DNA of 64,000 bases from Beroe forskalii (taxonomy: Eukaryota > Ctenophora > Nuda > Beroida > Beroidae): NCBI GenBank assembly GCA_011033025.1, contig WFMF01000214.1, forward strand, positions 225,801 to 289,800, read 5' to 3'. Positions 37,515-60,567 of the stretch are shown here, piece after piece (position 1 is the first letter of the stretch; each line of letters opens with the position of its first letter). Below the pieces are notes generated by a model. It worked only from the letters and a program-made list of their open reading frames with translations. It was not told the DNA's origin and searched no databases. Made by a program: the position numbers and the translations under genes.

Positions 37515-39297
37515 TTAAACCGGTCTGCAAGTCATTCCCACGAACTCAATGTAGTTTATCTTGCCGTCCCCGTTGAGGTCTGCCTCTTTGATCAGCTCGT
37601 CAGCCTCCTTATCAGTCAGAGGGTCTCCTATCGCAGTCAGCACCTTGATGAGGAACGGACATTTAACCCCAAAACATTATATCTCACGACACTTAATAAC
37701 CATACGATATTTCAACTGCAACTATAGGCAAAAGTTAGGGTCTGAGTTCGGGTTAGGGTTCTAAGGGTTAGGGCTATAGTCAAGGGTTTCGGTTAGGGTT
37801 ATGGTTAGTAGGGTCTGCTGAGAGAGATGCTGTGATGAAAAATATTTGGGGCTATAAGTGGGATTCCCACCTTGATCAGCTCCGCTGTGTCGATCTGTCC
37901 GTCCTTGTTCTCGTCAAAGACTTCAAATGCTTCCTTCAATATACATAAAGGCGTGGTTTTAGAACGCTGGTAGGCTATCCTGATCCTTCAAGATATTCTA
38001 ATACGCAAAATCCTTTGATATAATATTCTTATATTATAAATCCTGAGGATCTAGCCATTCTCATTGTTTTTCAAGATAAGATCCTGTGCAGTGTGTGATA
38101 CTGTTTTTCTGTTTGCTTATTGGAAAACCATGCTGGTGACAGCAGTCAGATTGTCGCCTGAGTCACAGTTAGGCGTTATGCTGCTTACTCTCATAGGTCA
38201 GTAGCCTCGTAAGGACATAAGGACATATGATATCAACTAAAATAGACGTTTTTGTTTGGATCGCTATCATGGAAAATTTTTATCATTTTATGCTTTTGAT
38301 CTAAAACATGAATTTAATATTTAGGAAAACCGATATGTCAGAGATATGGCAAATGGCTCTGTAAACATAATTTTCTAATTTCTAATGGGGCAGTTATGCA
38401 GTTGGCAATACATTTAATGACGGGATTATTCAGCAAACAAATTGTCTTATCATTTAGCCTCAATGTACGATAGATCAAAAAGTGGACAGAATGGTTCCAC
38501 AAATCCATCAATCCAATGGACAGGAATAGGGATTCATTTAGGCACTCTGACGAAAATTAACATGACAGTACTCACTTAATTCCTGATCCAGGAATCCGTG
38601 TTTGTTGCGGTGCTCTGCTATGATCTCACTGAAAATTATATAAGTCAATAAGTCATTATAAGTGCCTAGTATCAACTGAGTAAGTTGTAGAATTAGAACA
38701 CTGTTGCATCTGAATGAATATGAATTCTGACCAACTAAGACTCTTTTACTTTTGTGCATTTGGCCATTTGAATTTTTGCATTTAAAAAATTGTTACCGTA
38801 AGCAAAAACTTTAATATTAGAAATCTAGGATCCTTACCAGAACTCTATGAACGATATGGATGACTTGTCCATGTTGACCAGCTCGGCTAGGATGTTATTC
38901 AGCTCCGTCTCAGTAGGGACACCTCCTGCCACTCTCATTGCTGATCCCACCTGATCCAACTTCAGCTGACCACCCTCTGAGGGATTACATTTTACTGAAA
39001 ATACGAATATAGTGAATACAGTAGCCATTAAACCAACTCTGAAGTCTATATGTCTATAATCACATGCTAATATGTTTCTATAATAAAACTCAAAAAACTC
39101 AAAATATTTCGAAATAATATAAGTGCATGCTGCACCATTTTTGACAACTAACTTCCTTTGGAGAAGACTCCAAAGACTTTCTTCAGTTCTGCCACCTGAT
39201 CCGGAGACAGGGGTAGATCGCCTGCTATCTGGTTATTAGCTGAGGATGACTTCGACTTCTTCTTCCCCTTGCCTTTTCCGCCCTTCTTAGGCGGCAT
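37515..39297 (-). CDS. EF-hand protein of the calmodulin / myosin light chain class
   Basis: Five exons, 180 codons: 39153-39297 (ATG), 38838-38994, 38576-38628, 37871-37929 and 37515-37643 (TAA). Residues 1-20 are a lysine-rich head ([14 protein letters not shown] then serines). Four EF-hand positions follow. The first (around residue 46, [18 protein letters not shown]) and second ([12 protein letters not shown]) have lost loop residues and are probably unable to bind calcium. The third ([12 protein letters not shown]) and fourth ([12 protein letters not shown]) are canonical 12-residue loops. Overall length and two dead plus two live hands suit calmodulin-like, light-chain or outer-dynein-arm-associated proteins. 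I cannot decide between them. The exon 4 acceptor is chosen by phase and is the weakest point: GAAG|CATTTG keeps frame, whereas GAAG four bases earlier would give the more usual KEAFEVF. Confidence 0.85.
37735..37815. repeat. Interstitial telomere-like tract
   Basis: Degenerate ttaggg units (gggttagggtt, aagggttaggg, ggttagggttatgg) inside the last intron of the EF-hand gene. Related cccta units occur reversed at 52.71-52.78 kb inside a mobile element. Confidence 0.7.
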
Positions 39298-41300
39298 TCT
39301 TCACCTGAGCCTACCAATCTATTGAGCTTTGGAAGCGCCGTGTTCGCTCAAATTCTTCCGTTTATGTCACAAGAATAAGGTCCTGCCTATAAAGGAAAAT
39401 AGAATGGAATAAAGGAATGAAATTAGGGTCAATTTATAGAAACTGGATCAGGAAAGATAGTATGACATTAAATACTTATTAATCTGAATAAGTAGTTGCG
39501 ATGTAAGATCATAACCAGCGTCCATCAGATCGAACTGAAGCAACAGAACGGTTATCATATCCACAAAAAATGAACAATCCCTCCCCTGATAGAAAAGTTC
39601 AGTACGAGCTTTGCTCCACAACGTTCGTAATTAATTTTCTCAAGGGGGGTTTGTGCTTGTGAAGCTTTGTGAGAAGCTGCCACAGTCCACCTCATTTCAC
39701 GGTCTTGACTGAGGTCCGAGGAAGCATAGAAAGATGAGTCATCTGCAAATAGGCCGGTAAAGAGCTTCAACGATTGTTGTGGCTTTGTAAAAGCTATAGT
39801 ATTTACCATTGACAAGCAAGGAAAATTACCGCACGAATAAGAGTTTTACAAAGTAGGTACACAACAAATATGATGATAACAGATAAAAAGTAGGTATGAT
39901 TATAACTGAATGCTTGGCACAATTTGGGACAACGATCATGAGAACAAGTGGCTGAAGCACTTATCTAATTCTATCTATCTATGAATACCCTTGCTAAACA
40001 TCCTGCAGCTATAAGAAAACAAAACATATCCGCATAAACATTGTAAACATCACCGAGTTTTTTAAAGATTATGCGAGCATGTAAGTGGACCGATGTGGCG
40101 CTATATACGCCTGTAAAAGCTTGGCATTGAGTAATTAGCATTGAGTCTAAATGGTTGCTATTGGGCTCGGAAAGAAGATCAAAGTGTACAAAGAACTACA
40201 GATCACCAACCCACGGCAGAGGTTCTATAACTCCTGCAGTCTAATTAATAGCTACGCCACGATCAGAACAAGTTAATGTTCGTATACCTTCACTCCCTCT
40301 TTGGCATATCCTCTTACGCTCTTATCGTATTACGTTCTGTGGTTCCACGCAGGGACTCCGCATTCTCAGACATCAGTGAAATGTGCTAAGAATACCGGGG
40401 AAGAATCATAGAACTAATCAAAATTTCTGATGATTTAGAAAATGATCTTACATGAATTGAATATACATATATTTTGTAATATTTAATTTAAGTAAGTAGT
40501 TGGGATGCTACAATTAGAGCAATGTAAAATGAGAAGAGGAATTTGAGTCCCATACTTTGGTTCCATGACAACAGCGTTTCTATTTACTGAAAGTGAAATT
40601 CTACCCTAACTCGATACTGTAAATCAATTGCATACCATTATCTGGAAGTGGAAGTCCATAGCCTGGTGTTCAGGCTAGGATAATGATTCAGGCTGGATTG
40701 CTTCTTGATCCAGATTCATAAGTCCATTTCCAATTAGACTTTTCGACTGCTGCATCCAATTAGTGGCACCAATGCATCAGCTTCTATAATAGATGATCCT
40801 ATTTATTTTAAACTGCGCTTGTTTGGTTGACATCTGCGCTAGTTTGGTAAATGAAACAAATCAGAAAATTTAAGTTGGTACTCTCCTGAAATTGAAAATA
40901 ATTATTCGTAGCTAACGATATCTCAGTTAAGGCACGTAAACTGTTATATTTGGTAATTAAGTAATTATGTTGGTAATTATATCCGTGTATCCTTTGATAC
41001 TTTAATGTGAGACGTGGTTATTGACCTGACCTACAACTTTATTCCACACTCAAGGCTTCAAGGAAACTTTCATAGGCACCTGGCACAGTGACATAAGCTT
41101 GGGACCCTTCACTTTCAATGTGTACATATTCAAATTGATTGCGTGAAAAAGTATTTTTGACTTATTTAGTTATTAAATAAGACCGATACCTTTACTCTGT
41201 ACATCTATAGTTTTATTCTTTTTATAAACACTCGCCTTTCCGCACATTAGTCATGTGTATGTCACTGTTCTTCTGATCCTGTAAATACAGAAATACCACT
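39298..41300. other. Intergenic DNA upstream of the EF-hand gene
   Basis: AT-rich. The first few hundred bases above 39297 are the likely promoter side of the EF-hand gene, but I see no clear TATA box. No exon or repeat stands out up to 41.3 kb. Confidence 0.4.
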
Positions 41301-41310
41301 CTCCACTCAC

Positions 41311-41459
41311 CTTTCACTGGAGCATCTGATCTGGTCGGGGGTGGAGTCCAGGTGAGGTAGCTGAACCTCTCACTCCTCCATCTGGCACCCAGGAGACCAC
41401 TGAACGCTACCCCTCCAACCACCTCACCTCCCCATGTGGCGTTGCACTCCGAGCCTTCG
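41311..41459 (-). CDS. Candidate internal exon, unrecognised
   Basis: 149 bp from ttccAG to AAAG|GTGAGT on the minus strand, 49 codons, including ECNATWGGEVVGGVAFSGLL, then RWRSERFSYLTWTPPPTRSD. The codon pattern and both splice sites look real. It lies downstream of the stop codon at 41710, so it belongs to another gene or to an alternative 3' end. It opens with one codon-completing base and ends with one spare base, so neighbours must exist, but I could not find them. Confidence 0.5.
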
Positions 41460-41709
41460 CTGGAATGAGGTGCGTTACTAAGTAGTTATCAGATGTTAGA
41501 GCTTTTAAGAGGAATTTGAGAAACTGATGTTACAACTTTACGAGAGGAATAGACCGACTAAGAATGTATGAACGAATGCTGGTCCTATTGGTTTTTGAGG
41601 GAAATCGAAAAGGCTCCAGTTTTTCGATTTTTGGAGTCGTATTTCCGATAAAAATGCAGAGGAGAAAGTTTCTGTTTGATTAATAACCCTTCAGAGAAAT
41701 TCTATCAAA

Positions 41710-53100: not shown

Positions 53101-56100
53101 CACTTGACAGTCAGACACTAAAACAGATGGTGAAACGATGGCAGAACTTGGTTTTGCTGCCATCAAATAGTGGAATGGCCCCATCCTGAGTTCACTAGAA
53201 ATTAAAAATGATGCAATCCTACAAACGTATAAAATATGGTTAACAAACTATGGGGATGTCATCAACGTGCTTTATCTCACCTTTATCCCACCTTTATCTC
53301 ACCTTTATCTCACCTTTATCTCACCTACGCAGGCTGAACAACGGAATATGTTCGTACATGACCCTCATTGAAGGAACTTGCCACTTCTACACCCAGGAGG
53401 TTGTGAAGCAGCCTTATACGCCTGCCATCACTATCAACGTAGCTTGTGCATTCCGTGAGTCCGAACTTCCACACTTCCAGAATATTAATTATATTGCCAA
53501 TTGTCTGCGAAATCAGTACCTACAAATTGACAGCTATGGATCTATAAGTTTTATACTTATCGGACGCAGATCGCTGTGAATTCCGTGTACTACTTCAGAC
53601 ATGGATTGCCCGCGAAGTGTCCAGTACGGGCTCCTCAACCAGCCTCTCACAGTGGAGTGCACCTCACATCCGGTCGAGTTCGAGGCTGAGCACGAGGGTT
53701 TTGTGTGGCGAGTAGATGGCACGGTGGTCAGCAGTCTCTCCCAGGATTACACCCTAGAGTACCTGCCTTTCGTCAACGGTACCAAACTTACACTCACCAT
53801 CAAAAGCCTAACGAGCTATCAGGTACAATTATTACTGCCGGACAAATTGCTGAATTATTTAAGGAGCAAGTTTAAAACGTTGAATAAGTAAATATTACGA
53901 TAAACTTTAAAATCATGTTACGACTTCTAAAATATTGCATTGTTTTGAACGGATCAATGATTAAATTTTGCAATCATATCGATTTTTCTCCATTACAGAG
54001 CCGGTAACAAAGTCCGGTTTATTAGCTGGGTGCAGTAAAATCCCTTTTCACAGACATCGGTTGATCTGAGCTTCGTGTACTCGTATCCACCTGATGACTA
54101 CAACGACATTGAGCTGACGCATCGTGTGTTTGTAGAGGGGACAGAGATTCCAGGTATACGGCAGCTTTGTATTGCTGTTCTCAATTCATATAAATTATAA
54201 CTTATTTTGTGGTAGTATAGTTAGTACTACAGTTCAAGTTCATCCACTGAGCGAACTTCACATCTTCATGCTCTCATGTATCATAAAACACTTCACCCAA
54301 AGCTTATCCCCTGGGCTATTTCCCTGAGATTTGTCGATGATTCCCTGAAAGCCTGAAATCACATAGACGCAGCTTCACGTAACCCCATTCCCCAATCCCC
54401 TATAATCCTACAGATCGTGAGACCGACCACAACGAGATAACGGAGTATGTGAGTGTCAGCTCCATGAGCGCAGCAGCTTTCTTCAGAGAGCAATACTCAA
54501 ACTTCGAGCTCACCAAAGAACTGGCGCTCGATGGCAATAGTTCTACCTGTGCCCATTCCGTCAACACGGCACCTGATCAGGGGTTCCTGCGAGTTCAGTT
54601 CGAAGAAGCTTTCTTCGTTTACAGTGTCAAGTTATACCAGATATTCTACCTTGGGTGGCCAGGAGATAAGAATTGGCACAGTGGTGATTGCTGGGAAGAC
54701 ACGTCAAGTTACGAGGTACACTTTCATGCTAATTTAGTTGATTGATTGATTGTCGATAGTTCAGTTTCAATACTTCAATATGGCCATAACTTTATTAAAT
54801 AGCCTTTAGAATCCGTGATTTATTGTCATGCTGCTTTAAAGCAAGTCGAAGCAACTGCTACAGATTTCTTTACCTTGACGATGCAAAGGGCAACTAAAAA
54901 ATGGACGTTGGTTAACAATTGATCAACATTTTTCAAAAAAAATTTGAGCTGTCAACGAGGAGATAGAGTACGTGGAAATCACTGATTCCGACTGTGATCC
55001 TTGCTTAACCCTAGAAAATGCTATAATGTACCAGAATGTATGTAAGTATGTAGCAATGAACACTCAAATACCACCTGTTTCCAGAGCTGCATCACTGAAG
55101 AGCTGAAAGTCACGGTAAAAGTGGAGAACTGTGACACAGAAGGGATCTGTGTCGATGTCAAGGAGTGTGGAGAGATAGCGTACAGCACCGGAATGCAATG
55201 GGTAAATATGTGAATTGTGGATCGAAACACGTAAAAACGCGGGAAAATCTGTTATTGCTAGTTTGAAGACGTTTTTTCTGTCAAAAGCATCAATTTTCAT
55301 ATTTACCGTGACATTCCATGGCGCGCGCGCGCACACACAGGCGGAACGATACCGAATGCATATTATTATTGTGGTCGGCCTCCTTGACGAGTGATGACCA
55401 GCCTCTCGACCTCCTGACACGCCTTCCTTGACGAGTCAAGGAAGGCGAGTCAAGGAAGGCGTGGCAGGAGGTCGAGAGGCTGGTCATCACTCGTCAAGGA
55501 GGCCGACCACAATTTGTAATATGTATTTTGGGGTAGGAGGCTCCTACCCCAAACACGACTTCCTTGACGAGTGATGATCAGCCCCTCCTTCTACCACACC
55601 TTCCTTGACGAGTGATGACCAACCCCTCCTACTCCTAGCAAACCTTCCTTGACGAGTGATGAACAGTCCCTCCTACCCCTAGAACTCCTTCATTGACGAG
55701 TGATGGGCAATGACCAATCTCTCCTAAAACGTCTCCTCTGACCTTCAGACTAACAATTTTAAAAAGTTTCGGGTCTGTCAGAAGGATTTAGCCAAATTCT
55801 CTGTCCCATGAGTTAGGCTGCTGTGAAATAAATAACATGTCTGAAGATCAGACCTGGAACACCACAAGGAGCCGTCAAGGGCACAGTTGCAAAGTAATTG
55901 AGGTGTAGTTGTTAAATTTTATGAGGTACCGCTGATAACGAGGCCACAAATTACATAAAAAAACACTCTTATCAGAAATACTCACATCCCAAACATACTG
56001 ACATTTACCTTCATTCTTATGTCGGTATGTTTCAGGAGGATCAGCTTTACGAGACAGTGTGCGAGGCTGAAGGAAACTCTGTGATAGTTGTAGGGCAGGC

Positions 56101-58736
56101 AGGGAAACCTCTGACTATCTGCGAGCTTCAGGTCTTCGGTTATCGTGAGTCCAGGGTATTATTAAAGCCTTTCGTTTGACATCGGTCCAATAACTACTTG
56201 GATACGAGACGCGCCTACCAATTGCTGTATTTTTATCTACAAACCACAGTTCAGAAGTGCTGCAATCTGTTCAATGATCAATTCATGATGCTTTTGTAGT
56301 TAGTTGGCAGAAATGCAGTATTCAACGATATCCCCCAAGTTCACCCCTCCCCCTTCTGCAGCCTGCAGGAATGTGCCGCTGACCATAACCTCGTCTACCA
56401 CACCCGTCTTTGACCCCCCTCTCTCTCCCTGCAGCCCAGGAATGTGCCCCCGATCACTACCTCGTCTACCACACCCGTCTTTGACCCCCCTCTCTCTCTT
56501 CAGCCCAGGAATGTGCCGCTGACCATTACCTCGTCTTCCCCACCCGCCTTTGACCCTCTCTCTCTCTTCAGCCCAGGAATGTGCCCCCGATCACTACCTC
56601 GTCTTCCCCACCCGTCTTTGACCCCCCTCTCTCACTTCAGCCCAGGAATTTGCCCCCGATCACTACCTCGTCTTCCCCACCCGTCTTTGACCCCCCTCTC
56701 TCTCTTCAGCCCAGGAATGTGCCGCTGACCACTACCTCGTCTTTCCCACCCGTCTCTGTGCCCCCTGTAGTGCGGGGTATGTCAGTCAGGTGTACTCGTG
56801 TAGTGAAGGGATAGACTGCAATACTGACACTGGCTACTCCTCTCACATCTACAAGTGCAGTACCACCGCTGATATTGAGTGGGGTGAGTAGCTTTGCGAA
56901 CATTGTCATCTATTTCGTTATTACGAACTTATTTACGAAACCGTCCGGCACCGGTTTACTTGGGTATATTATGTTTGTCTGACACCAGTTTACTTAAGTA
57001 CTTAGACATATTTTGGTTGACCGACAGTTGATACCAGTTTATTTAGATTCAGACATATTCTGTTTGTTTGGCTCCAGTTTACTCAGAAATAATCTGTATG
57101 TCTGACACCATTAAATGTTGCAATATTAATCGACAGATCATAATTTCTGAAGTTTTTGGAAGATTCTGAGCAATTTGCTGACTGCTGGTGTCCTCTAATC
57201 TAGTTACAAAGTCTAATTCGCAGAGAACTGTATGATTACCGTCACTTAGAGAGTTAGAGGATTATTGAAACACTTTCCACGAACAATGTGGTTGGATGTT
57301 ACACTTGCTGCACACTGCACACGTACAATGATACGGTAGCTCTTGAGTTGGTCATGGCGTGAAAAGTGATGGTTGCTAGCAACAAGAGGCGTAATTTTAG
57401 GTAGAATACCAGTGCAAGGTAGCAGTCCTCTGACCGCCCCTCGGCAGCAGTCCATGTTCATAAATAGAGGCCATATAATAGGCCGAAAGCGACACAGGCG
57501 GCTGCCTCCCCTTTTGGACAGACAACGTGAAAATTTGGTTAAGATGAGAGCTTGGATCCTAGCAAAATAAAATTTTGACAAGTTTTAAATGTAACCCGCC
57601 ACTTCCTCTACAAAAATCTAGCTACGCCCCTGACTGATACCGCCCGGAAGATTGCATTATTCTGTCAACCTTTGCATTGTATTTGTATAAAAACCCATTA
57701 AAGGTCTTTAATTGCCCTTCCAAGCTGTATTTTCAGTAAGCTTAAAAAGCCGAAAAAAATGACATTTGATAAAGCACAAAGATGCAAGGTTTGATTGCTT
57801 AACACGTATATCACTGTGTTGCTAAACACGTATATCCCTGTGTGGCTCGCGCAGCGCTTCCCCAGGGAAGCGCGCGGCGCGTACACTTAACACTCACCTA
57901 TGCGGGCTTAGGAAATCACTGTGTGGCTCGCGCGGCGCGTACACACCTATGCGGGCTTAGGAAAAGGTTTGAGTGTATCAATTATTCAGATCGACCTCGA
58001 CTTTCGGTCGCATTTCGAACTCATAGGAGCGCGGCGTATCGTGCGCAGCTCACTGGCTGTTGATGGCACACAGTGAGCCGCACTCGTAGAAGTTCGACAC
58101 GTCCCTGTTATTAAGTTATTATTCGATTAATTAATAATTACTTAATCCAAATGACGTCAAGGATCTTAATTTTTCAAGCGTAATCTATGTTTGGTCATTA
58201 TAATCCCTACCGTTTAATCGCAGTTTCTATATAGTTACGGTTTGAAATAAATCAGGAGCGTGCAGCAGTTCAACTTCACTTAACGTGAGTACACACGGCC
58301 TCTGGGTGTTAGGCTAGCCCTCAGAGAATCTTAGAATAATGTTATCACCCACGCCACCAAAAGACTTACCTTCAAATGAAAACATGCATATTACATCAGT
58401 TAGATTTTGCATGGCGTTGAATAATGCCACTTGAACTGTTTGGATTTCCCTTGGATTTCCCTTGGATTTCCCTTGGATTTCCCCTATCTTACGGGAGAGA
58501 GCGTTTCAACTCTCAGCATTTCAAAATTAAACATTCTCTGTGAATTAAGGCAGTCTTACCGTCTCAATTTTCTGTTATGGTGAATTGGTGAATATTCATT
58601 GTTTTTGATGCTAGTAGCTTTTGAATTTGCGCATTCATAGTAAAATCTGAAAAATCCCATCCCTCAAAATATGACTTAGCGAAAGATGTTAATTATCTCT
58701 TTTGTCTTAGATGGAGGCGTAGTCTATCTTCCCTGA
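50147..58736 (+). CDS. Secreted multidomain protein: PAN-like, Ig and discoidin/fucolectin-like domains
   Basis: Ten firm exons join in phase: 50986-51255, 52117-52377, 52839-52974, 53333-53454, 53599-53822, 54054-54153, 54414-54715, 55085-55201, 56036-56144 and 56710-56883. Exons 1-4 are cysteine-rich and PAN/apple-like (EELISWCVTESECRAVTCEV; TDCFDQCRNQ, then NTCSAFSLNWKESLCLMF). Exon 5 is an immunoglobulin-like domain (PLTVECTS, GFVWRVDG, GTKLTLTIKSL). Exons 7-9 look like one fucolectin / F5-8C-type fold (ELALDGNSSTCAHS, VYSVKLYQ, ending PLTICELQVFGY). Exon 10 is cysteine-rich (RLCAPCSAGYVSQVYSC). Candidate outer exons, less sure, are 50147-50299 (phase fits, weak donor) and 58711-58736 (strong acceptor, reads DGGVVYLP-stop). 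The signal peptide exon was not found. About 615 residues without the N-terminus. A secreted or surface recognition/adhesion role is inferred from the domains. Three of its 3' splice sites are built from or disturbed by repeats (see findings). Confidence 0.82.
51602..51678 (+). mobile_element. Helitron-like 3' end or mini-element
   Basis: A short hairpin (gtggccgtaggccac) is followed after eight bases by CTAG and a T, the layout of Helitron 3' ends (hairpin, then CTRR, inserted before T). A possible 5' end, a|TCTTACTACTTATAA, lies 77 bp upstream. It is in the intron between exons 1 and 2 of the multidomain gene. Confidence 0.45.
52653..52835. mobile_element. 183-bp element carrying telomere-like repeats, inserted at a 3' splice site
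   Basis: Flanked by perfect 13-bp direct repeats, caggggactattg, at 52640-52652 and 52836-52848. The ends are partly inverted: gacatctcatctcaggacac at left; gtgtcctgagatgaaatgtc at right. The centre (about 52705-52780) is a degenerate (ccctaa)n tract. The duplicated 13-mer contains the AG and first bases of exon 3 of the multidomain gene. Confidence 0.8.
53278..53330. repeat. 12-bp tandem repeat forming a pyrimidine tract
   Basis: Unit acctttatctc repeated four to five times, ending directly in tacgcag, the 3' splice site of the exon at 53333. The pyrimidine tract of this intron is therefore a microsatellite. Confidence 0.8.
55371..55510. repeat. Long near-perfect palindrome in an intron
   Basis: Arms of about 65 bp: gtggtcggcctccttgacga, then gtgatgaccagcctctcgac, is answered by gtcgagaggctggtcatcac and tcgtcaaggaggccgaccac. 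The centre repeats ggaaggcgagtcaaggaagg. It lies between the exons at 55201 and 56036. An intron transcript would form a long hairpin. Confidence 0.9.
55550..55725. repeat. Tandem repeat related to the palindrome arm
   Basis: Three to four units of about 45-50 bp containing ccttccttgacgagtgatga and cccctcctac. They derive from the same sequence as the adjacent palindrome arm. Confidence 0.75.
56362..56755 (+). repeat. Minisatellite made of a duplicated 3' splice site and exon start
   Basis: Units start at 56362, 56435, 56504, 56572, 56641 and 56710 (periods 73, 69, 68, 69, 69). Each unit has cccaggaatgtgcc, then cactacctcgtct, then acccgtctttgacccccctc and tctctcttcag. Each therefore ends in a full pyrimidine tract plus AG and begins with the first 45 bases of the last exon. 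In the first five units the frame hits TGA (cgtctt-tga). Only the sixth (cgtctctgtgcc) stays open into the real exon. Confidence 0.92.
56941..57115 (-). repeat. Diverged 34-bp repeat, reversed
   Basis: Four to five diverged units of gtctgacaccagtttact and agacatattctgttt type. They are the reverse of the terminal minisatellite at 63494-64000. Confidence 0.75.
57783..57962 (+). mobile_element. Two partial R2 foldback copies in tandem
   Basis: aacacgtatatccctgtgtg, then gctcgcgcagcgcttcccca and cacctatgcgggcttagga, followed directly by a second shortened copy (tgtggctcgcgcggcgcgta, then cacctatgcgggcttagg). Matches 309-460 and 873-971. Confidence 0.7.
58439..58486. repeat. 12-bp tandem repeat
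   Basis: ttggatttccct repeated four times. Confidence 0.85.
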
Positions 58737-58985
58737 CGACAAAGAAACGTTCTAAACTTTACAACACCACTCTATGAAATCAAATTCAAGAATTATGCTT
58801 ATGTGGTGCAATTATGATGAGACTTGTCAGTTTCTTCTAAATGATCTCTGGACGTGTGGATCATCGCCAGTCTCATTTGGGTTTCAAGAAGTCTTCCCTC
58901 AGGACAAAGAACCGTGGCTTTTCCTGTTTAAAAAGCCAATTCTCATAAGAAATGCTAATCCTCATAAAAATGCTAATTGGTTGCA

Positions 58986-59028
58986 TGACGTCATCAGTTC
59001 ACTACTGGAGACCCAATTCATGACGTCA
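58986..59028. promoter_or_regulatory. Two TGACGTCA sites upstream of the secreted-protein gene
   Basis: Perfect CRE-type palindromes at 58986-58993 and 59021-59028, about 260-300 bp before the ATG at 59287. A promoter role is plausible by position. There is no other proof. Confidence 0.4.
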
Positions 59029-59286
59029 CTGCACCTGAACTCCCCTAGTTTACATCTGCTACTTCACAGCTCCCTACCCTAGTGGCGGCTTCCTCATTAT
59101 GTTACTAATTGCAGTCATCATGCAGCTAATTGCTCTCAAAGTGCCAAAAATTGCGCGTATTGTTGCATGAATGCATGACCGTCCAATGTTGCTATGAAAT
59201 ATACCGTGCTTCACTACGGAGGCTCAATTTCGACCAAGCTACTGAAGAATTCGTTTGAACCTGTTGAAAGCTTCTGATATCGTAAA

Positions 59287-60567
59287 ATGAAGACTGCTTT
59301 TGTCTTATTGGTGATAGTGCCCTGTTGTTTAATTACACTGAGTCATTCGGAACCTGTTAGAGGTGAAAAAATCCTGTCGGACATTGCAGTTGAAGTTACC
59401 GGAGGATTGGGACCAAGGGATGGTTACTCTTCAGCTGCATACTGTCCTGCTGACTACGTTACAATCAAATGTAAAATGATAAAGGAGAGTAGCGGTTTAA
59501 ACTCTGACGGATGTAATATAAATGATAGAAGGTGCTTGGCAGTCGTAGGAACTTCTGATAATCATGGTCTTTGGGTATGTTATTTCGGCACTTCCATACT
59601 GCAGTATGTAGATAAAAATACTAAGTTTACCTAGTCCCTCCCAATTACAAACATGAAAGCATGAACAGGATGCTTTCATAATTCATACACGGGTACAGTT
59701 GAAGGACTGGCTAAGATCATTTTCACTTTACTTCTCTTTCATTGTTCATCAGACACATTTCCATCCGTGTTTAGCGGAAATTATTCCTTCAGGCTCAATC
59801 TGTTTGCTTCAAAAAATCAGAAAGTACCTTCGTGGCTAGACATCTAAAAGAATCCGGTGAAGCGCCCACCGATATCAAGATACAATGCACGGGTGATGAA
59901 GTGATGGTGACATGTGTAGCATACTCAGATACCACATTAGAGCGTAGTGTAGGAAACGTCAATAGGAATGATGCACAGGTCTCTATTGACAGTGGGACTA
60001 ACTCCTGCTGGATTCGGTGCAAATACCGAGATTGTACCTTGTCCGCAATGTGTCTGTCTACAAAAATAAAAAGTAAGAATTAGGAAATATTCTATTTTCT
60101 CTTTCAACTCTAACAATCTAACACAGTTTCTTGGCTCGCTAAGCCCTACACGCAAGGAGAAGTTGTGAGAAAAATACTATGCATTTTAAAAAGTTAAAAC
60201 TGCATATGAGAGGTAAAATAAGGACATTTCCATTAACAATTTCCAACTCGATACACAGTATTTTTCTCACAACCTCTAAACACTTGAATAAACAGATAAG
60301 AACACCTGCTACGAGTTCACCTCTGACGACATGCAGAAACTTCGGAACGGTCTTACAGAAAAGGAAGTTTGTGAAAGCCGGCACCCCTGGAACGAGTTCA
60401 AGGCGGATTTGCACTGGAATCTGGAGTGCATAGGCTGCTCCTGCTGCACTTTCTCAGAACCGAGTAAAGGACAATTTATTGTTCTGATTTGTGATAAACA
60501 CAAAATTGTGAAATACATGGACAATTACGGTATTCGGTCATTTGGCCTAACTGGACATTTGGCGTAA
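59287..60567 (+). CDS. Secreted cysteine-rich protein, three exons
   Basis: Exons 59287-59574, 59793-60072 and 60296-60567 splice in phase to 279 residues. Residues 1-21 (MKTAFVLLVIVPCCLITLSH and one more) are a typical signal peptide. The mature part has many cysteines: YCPADYVTIKCKM, then DGCNINDRRCLAVV; QCTGDEVMVTCVAY, then SCWIRCKYRDCTLSAMC; and in exon 3 NTCYEFTSDD, CIGCSCCTFSE. The C-x-G/A-[DE]-[YE]-V-x-[VI]-x-C pattern occurs twice, as if an internal module were duplicated. It faintly recalls the V-domain modules of PCSK9, but that is a weak resemblance. Family not recognised. The last ten residues (SFGLTGHLA region) and the TAA are encoded by the arm of a MITE. Confidence 0.82.

Follow-up and report, generated by a model that had tools for sequence, protein, structure and literature searches.

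In the DNA analysed here (the window), which makes up the final 64 kb of contig C264 in an assembly of 216 Mb (from an animal, to judge by the homeobox and mitochondrial genes), the 3′ splice site ahead of one exon has been multiplied in tandem together with the start of that exon. The resulting array of acceptors occurs in two copies, which differ in length, share their ends, and carry middle units of their own, and arrays of like anatomy are found in unrelated genes. The array is probably a tolerated and mostly silent “mirage”, i.e., a by-product of minisatellite turnover in which the last acceptor is the one used, and it is as parts of this reading that we infer both the neutrality of the array and the order of its mutations.

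The host gene and its exons

The array lies in intron 4 and at the start of exon 5 of a predicted gene, the features of which are collected in Table 1. With their borders read from the sequence, exon 4 (donor 56144|GTGAGT) and exon 5 join in frame. The host gene is read by eye as F-type-lectin-like. In Pfam searches, five exons tested singly gave weak matches only, the best of which (E = 0.095) was below the cut-off, and the joined exons of the window gave no match. The joined exons of contig C2, described below, matched F5_F8_type_C_2 with an E-value of 0.0032, which is below the cut-off of the family.

Table 1. Predicted exons and tandem repeats of the host gene, in positions of the window
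Feature	Position	Strand	Description
11-bp x5.2 array CTTTATCTCAC	53270..53326	+	Tandem Repeats Finder; branch-site-like motif repeated
Exon 3, predicted	55085..55201	+	Open frame, AG/GT borders; ends ...QW, phase 0
Exon 4, predicted	56036..56144	+	Donor C|GTGAGT at 56144, phase 1
Unit 1, 73 bp	56362..56434	+	Behind acceptor 56361; two extra bases shift the exon frame
Unit 2, 69 bp	56435..56503	+	Behind acceptor 56434; stop after 16 residues
Unit 3, 68 bp	56504..56571	+	Behind acceptor 56503; stop after 16 residues
Unit 4, 69 bp	56572..56640	+	Behind acceptor 56571; stop after 16 residues
Unit 5, 69 bp	56641..56709	+	Behind acceptor 56640; stop after 16 residues; ends with the last acceptor, 56709
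Exon 5 proper, 174 nt	56710..56883	+	Phase 1-1; cysteine-rich module; donor G|GTGAGT

The CTTTATCTCAC array ends just 5′ of a possible acceptor, predicted by eye, which ends at 53332. It lies outside the focal array, to which it is possibly related. In intron 3, at 55377-55512 of the window, a long inverted repeat, also recognised by eye, surrounds a TTCCTTGACGAGT minisatellite. Farther downstream, the region at 58960-60100 of the window, which includes a signal-peptide-like open frame, belongs to a repeated family, whose relatives on contig C255 have 76-90% identity.

Anatomy of the acceptor array

The array was reported by Tandem Repeats Finder at 56366-56766, with a period of 69, 5.8 copies and a score of 602, and a second repeat search found six copies. 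When cut at the acceptors, the interval 56362-56709 between exons 4 and 5 consists of five tandem units (73, 69, 68, 69 and 69 bp) that span the intron-exon boundary, each of them beginning with ~45 exon-5-like bases, which are followed by CTTTGACCCCCCTCTCTCTCTTCAG or a near variant. Six acceptor AGs end at 56361, 56434, 56503, 56571, 56640 and 56709. Ahead of each AG there is a tract with 15-16 pyrimidines per 17, and a yUnAy motif is present at all six, with its A placed 19-22 nt from the AG. Given the presence of branch motif, tract and AG at all six acceptors, the multiplied segment comprises an entire 3′ splice site along with the start of the exon, as an earlier note on this DNA had proposed. 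AG, tract and yUnAy are likewise found at 11/11 acceptors when the second copy, described below, is included. That note had counted six units of 68-73 bp, of which five stand, the sixth being exon 5 itself, with no tract and AG of the unit type after it. The acceptors that it listed, from 56434 to 56709, are all five real, and the first of the six, at 56361, has to be added to them.

The predicted products differ among the acceptors. Splicing from the donor at 56144 to 56434, 56503, 56571 or 56640 would yield 16 residues and then a stop, while splicing to 56361 would yield a shifted tail of 53 residues in which the exon-frame TGA is not reached, as the two extra bases of unit 1 shift the frame. 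The earlier expectation that the first five units run into this TGA is therefore correct for four of them. Only the last of the six acceptors, 56709, leaves exon 5 open through its donor in the window copy, which agrees with what had been claimed. The exon-frame TGA sits within the branch-site motif itself, CTTTGAC. From the first acceptor to the last, the length of the exon to 56883 would be 522, 449, 380, 312, 243 and 174 nt. An extra AG is also found 5 or 7 bases further in every unit (56368, 56439, 56508, 56576, 56645 and 56714), and each of these six sites would produce a tail in a shifted frame, between 4 and 50 residues long.

A second copy of the array

A search with 79 bases gave matches on C264 and C2 only, and a second copy of the array was located in the same assembly at C2:424710-425157, with five acceptors at 424710, 424776, 424845, 424913 and 424983. 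The earlier note had suggested that the locus may vary in length between individuals. The number of units does differ, with six acceptors in the window against five on C2, between two copies in one assembly, which may be alleles or paralogues.

Between the two copies, all 109 bases of exon 4 and all 174 bases of exon 5 are identical. The arrays align with 246 matching columns, 27 mismatches and 75 gaps; for the non-coding segment 56884-59277, the corresponding numbers are 2,117 matches and 97 mismatches (2,214 aligned columns), together with 480 gap columns. At the substitution rate of the latter segment, the chance of finding 283 identical bases is, by our own arithmetic, ~3 in a million, and given this improbability, exons 4 and 5 have been either conserved or recently exchanged. 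In the downstream open frame at 59287-59631, however, 12 mismatches and 5 gap columns separate the window from C2.

The homology with C2 extends, with gaps, from window position 55541 to the end of the contig. The left side of the C2 copy is occupied by a 5.4-kb minisatellite of 16-bp units, beside which the homology with the window stops, and the upstream exons of the window gene were not found in the ~24 kb of C2 upstream of the second copy. For two other segments of the window, 54400-55220 and 39000-41500, no second full copy was found in the assembly. The C2 copy may be an allele with a structural difference, a paralogue, or the outcome of a misjoin at the minisatellite.

Among the C2 units, units 3 and 4 read TCA and the other units TGA. 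Acceptor 424845 would give an open product of 107 residues, compared with 61 from the last acceptor (+46), and acceptor 424913 would lead to a stop after 29 residues. The early stop is therefore not retained in all of the upstream units, as 424845 is open.

History of the array

The first units of both copies have CATAACC in common, and their last units (window unit 6 and C2 unit 5) are identical across the 45 bases compared. The middle units, on the other hand, are copy-specific, with CCCGAT in window units 2, 4 and 5, and GTACC in C2 units 2, 3 and 4. The array has, in other words, a homogenised middle between ends that are not homogenised, and these shared ends and copy-specific middles suggest that it is older than the split of the copies and that its middle has since been turned over.

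The origin of the stop may be approached in a similar manner. TTCAC is found at the first acceptor of both copies and at two later acceptors of C2, and TTGAC elsewhere, so that the TGA looks derived by one change. By eye, the junction sequences fit the exon sequence CGTCT joined to the intron sequence TTCACCCC. The simplest order of events would thus be the CGTCT-TTCACCCC join, followed by a single C-to-G change in the branch motif that also created the TGA.

Over nine units, the codons that differ from exon 5 comprise 15 nonsynonymous and 10 synonymous changes, which is what one would expect of untranslated sequence. A search for dispersed copies of the unit placed an exact 35-base piece at two positions of the genome, both inside this array. 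The constancy of the AG at 11/11 acceptors was also considered as a sign of selection for decoys, which was set aside because the divergence is low.

Arrays at other splice sites

Acceptor arrays are also present at two of the five myosin loci examined, which are myosin-head loci picked by family and not by their arrays (27 of the 78 matches were examined, and two that are cut by the ends of the C225 locus were left out). One of these arrays, at a myosin-head exon at C225:1033074-1033348, has a period of 34 bp, 8.1 copies, and CTAAC or TTAAC as branch-site motifs. The other, at a myosin-head exon at C29:5470-7603, is made of 32 units of 69 bp, which hold the first ~38 bases of the exon. The units of both contain a branch-site motif, a tract, an AG and the start of the exon, and their presence at 2/27 myosin acceptor edges indicates that acceptor arrays are not peculiar to one gene.

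Further arrays were found in a gene of modules on C2, which was studied because it adjoins the second copy. At 434430-434766, this gene has a 31-bp acceptor array with nine TTTCAG sites, only the last of which opens the exon, and at 439100-440097 a pyrimidine-rich 1-kb array ends a few bases 5′ of a predicted acceptor. The gene also carries further arrays at or near donors. An 18-bp array, TCTGTGGGCAAGGTGAGG, of ~156 units starts at a predicted exon end (C2:441083-443882) and contains 143 donor-like GGTGAG or GGTAAG sites, with the frame remaining open for ~90 residues beyond the exon. A 50-bp x2 and a 20-bp x23 array start at another predicted exon end (C2:435676-436181), where the units show a 20-base GT...AG pattern.

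The hypothesis that splice sites are hot spots for such arrays was examined in two ways. In the myosins, whose exon edges are the ends of profile matches and not proven borders, local duplication was counted at 2/27 acceptor edges, 0/27 donor edges, 0/27 exon middles and 25/200 intron interiors. The corresponding counts in the C2 gene were 0/14, 2/14, 0/14 and 17/40, which is an undercount, as the 31-bp acceptor array escaped a counting window that was fixed at 40 bases. In the placement test, arrays lay within 20 bases of 3/54 of these myosin edges, compared with 1.53 expected (P = 0.18), and of 4/28 edges in the C2 gene, compared with 1.13 expected (P = 0.018), the latter being again an undercount, since the merging of overlapping arrays lost the 50-bp x2 array at 435676-435773. 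Introns duplicate freely and exons do not, and the edges do not exceed the introns, so that splice sites are not clearly special; the hot-spot hypothesis was rejected on this basis. The P-value of the C2 gene is a hint at more than chance, although the edges do not exceed the intron interiors in the duplication count.

Origin of the array and alternative readings

The array was probably born through the tandem duplication of ~69 bp straddling the junction of intron 4 and exon 5, a segment that would have comprised ~24 intron bases, with the branch site, the pyrimidine tract and the AG, and ~45 exon bases. Growth, shrinkage and the homogenisation of the middle would have followed, with both ends staying in place. 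Such an array would have arisen because the introns here are rich in arrays of this kind, and not because splice sites attract them, and it would be tolerated because an intact acceptor is retained on the copy that adjoins the body of exon 5.

The likeliest splice would run from 56144 to 56709, through exon definition toward the donor after 56883. Exon definition favours the last and shortest exon, of 174 nt, and disfavours the exons of 243-522 nt that begin at the upstream acceptors. These acceptors would be silent, or would have a low level of use, with the removal of their products by nonsense-mediated decay, of which the upstream-spliced mRNAs should be targets, given that the stop lies far ahead of the next junction. 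As each unit has a branch-site motif of its own, what is selected would be an entire 3′ splice site, rather than one of several AGs that share a branch site.

A number of points run counter to the mirage reading. A selected function would equally keep AG, tract and yUnAy at 11/11 acceptors, and a nearest-site rule would favour the first acceptor, which is closest to the donor. The human boundary repeats and the potato duplication discussed below, which are reported to have altered introns or transcripts, would also speak against silence.

One alternative is that the units are on their way to becoming part of the gene, either as units without the TGA that turn coding through upstream acceptors or by splicing from an exonic donor inside one unit to an acceptor further along the array, which would give birth to an intron. 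This is rather unlikely, even though the TCA of C2 units 3 and 4 and the longer product of 424845 are what exon growth predicts, and new introns have been described at such boundary repeats in the potato RdRp (PMC4974935) and in human segmental-duplication genes (PMC2812944). All of the exon-frame units stop in the window copy, the neighbouring acceptor 424913 of C2 soon reaches a stop as well, and TCA may be simply ancestral; as for intron birth, the GT sites recognised by eye in the exonic portion of the units (GTCTTC and GTCTTT) are poor donors.

Another alternative is a splicing rheostat, in which the upstream acceptors compete, most of them leading to an early stop and decay, so that the number of units sets the full-length fraction. 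The full set of signals at all six acceptors, the four acceptors whose products end after 16 residues, well ahead of the next junction, and the different lengths of the array in the two copies are all consistent with tuning of this kind, as is the alternative splicing reported from human exon-intron boundary repeats (PMC2812944). The stop, however, is not retained in the C2 copy, the units drift at the protein level, the upstream acceptors create long exons that exon definition disfavours, and regular splicing is reported for the amphioxus mirages (PMC3087553, PMC3902484), all of which make such a rheostat improbable. It is very unlikely that the gene copy is broken or non-expressed and its acceptors devoid of splicing meaning, a reading suggested by the missing upstream exons and the 5.4-kb minisatellite on C2 and by the lack of a Pfam match above cut-off in these exons, since exons 4 and 5 are identical at 283/283 bases next to diverged non-coding sequence, and the frames of the window copy are open with proper borders.

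If the mirage reading is extended beyond this gene, a bolder proposal may be put forward, which is conceivable but doubtful: in a lineage far from lancelets, probably of ctenophores, ordinary genes such as the lectin-like one and the myosins would carry minisatellites at their splice junctions so often that the spliceosome must routinely choose the terminal copy of long arrays, among as many as ~32 acceptors or ~140 donor-like sites, with rapid change at the level of alleles and the occasional recruitment of units into coding sequence.

Comparison with known systems

The mirages published under that name and considered here come from cephalochordates, and the host of the present array does not look like a cephalochordate in its cox1 code and homeodomains. 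On its mitochondrial contig (C1134, 13,339 bp), cox1 is T-rich and strongly diverged; TGA is read there as tryptophan, and AGA stands at the arginines of PRINNLSFW and LLFDR. In amphioxus mitochondria, AGA is not known to code for arginine. Among the 30 homeodomain matches read by eye, out of 104, none was Hox-like. The best guess for the host would be a ctenophore, as ctenophores have fast-evolving mitochondria with code 4 and are not known to have Hox genes. A search for the GFP family found no member, but it found none in the control genomes either and so says little about the host. The host is taken here as a circumstance and not as the defining mechanism, and, except for its host and for its splicing, which is predicted, the array would count as a mirage.

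The amphioxus cases are minisatellite-like duplications across an intron/exon boundary in the globins BflGb6 and BflGb9 and in Adh3 (PMC3087553), with PGBD5, Adh and TnC as further examples (PMC3902484). For Adh3, somatic instability is reported (PMC3087553). The BflGb6 mirage has the same layout as the array described here, i.e., the 3′ end of an intron plus the 5′ part of an exon, and is known from haplotypes with 6 and 3 units (PMC3087553). Many of the amphioxus units likewise contain AG/GT signals, with a middle that is homogenised and ends that are not, and RT-PCR suggests that these genes are spliced regularly (PMC3087553, PMC3902484). On the other hand, the units measure 69 bp here and 150-160 bp in the amphioxus globins, and, unlike in the amphioxus mirages, donor and acceptor arrays recur here along one gene. 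Boundary arrays have been known as a curiosity that few have studied, with the best descriptions from lancelets, and they are found here in several genes of what looks like a different animal group. Their repeated occurrence in an animal other than a lancelet would mean that high minisatellite turnover produces them as a general rule.

In human segmental-duplication genes, variable minisatellites are described at exon-intron boundaries, where they may form novel introns and alternative transcripts (PMC2812944). The position of these repeats at the boundaries of paralogous genes is the same as here, with internal tandem repeats that have an average unit of 30 bp repeated 4 times. RNA supports modifications of exons and introns in 53 and 27 of the human cases, respectively (PMC2812944), whereas the splicing of the present array is predicted from its sequence. 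In the potato RdRp, a single tandem duplication across an intron-exon boundary led to a new intron, and the duplicated segment is of the same kind as here, an intron end plus an exon start, in which a branch site and a tract accompany the 3′ splice site (PMC4974935). One duplication gave a new intron there, while five units stand ahead of the exon here, in an arrangement read from the DNA. Such arrays would offer a natural source for the study of the beginnings of new exon sequence and of introns.

Finally, several AGs compete for one exon at NAGNAG and other tandem acceptors as well, where the choice depends on the AG-to-AG and branch-site distances (PMC2875228). The AGs of NAGNAG acceptors are a few bases apart, whereas those of the present array are 68-73 bp apart, each with its own branch-site motif and tract. 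Natural arrays of near-identical, complete acceptors would provide a ready test of how a splice site is chosen among sites of almost equal sequence strength that differ in position only.
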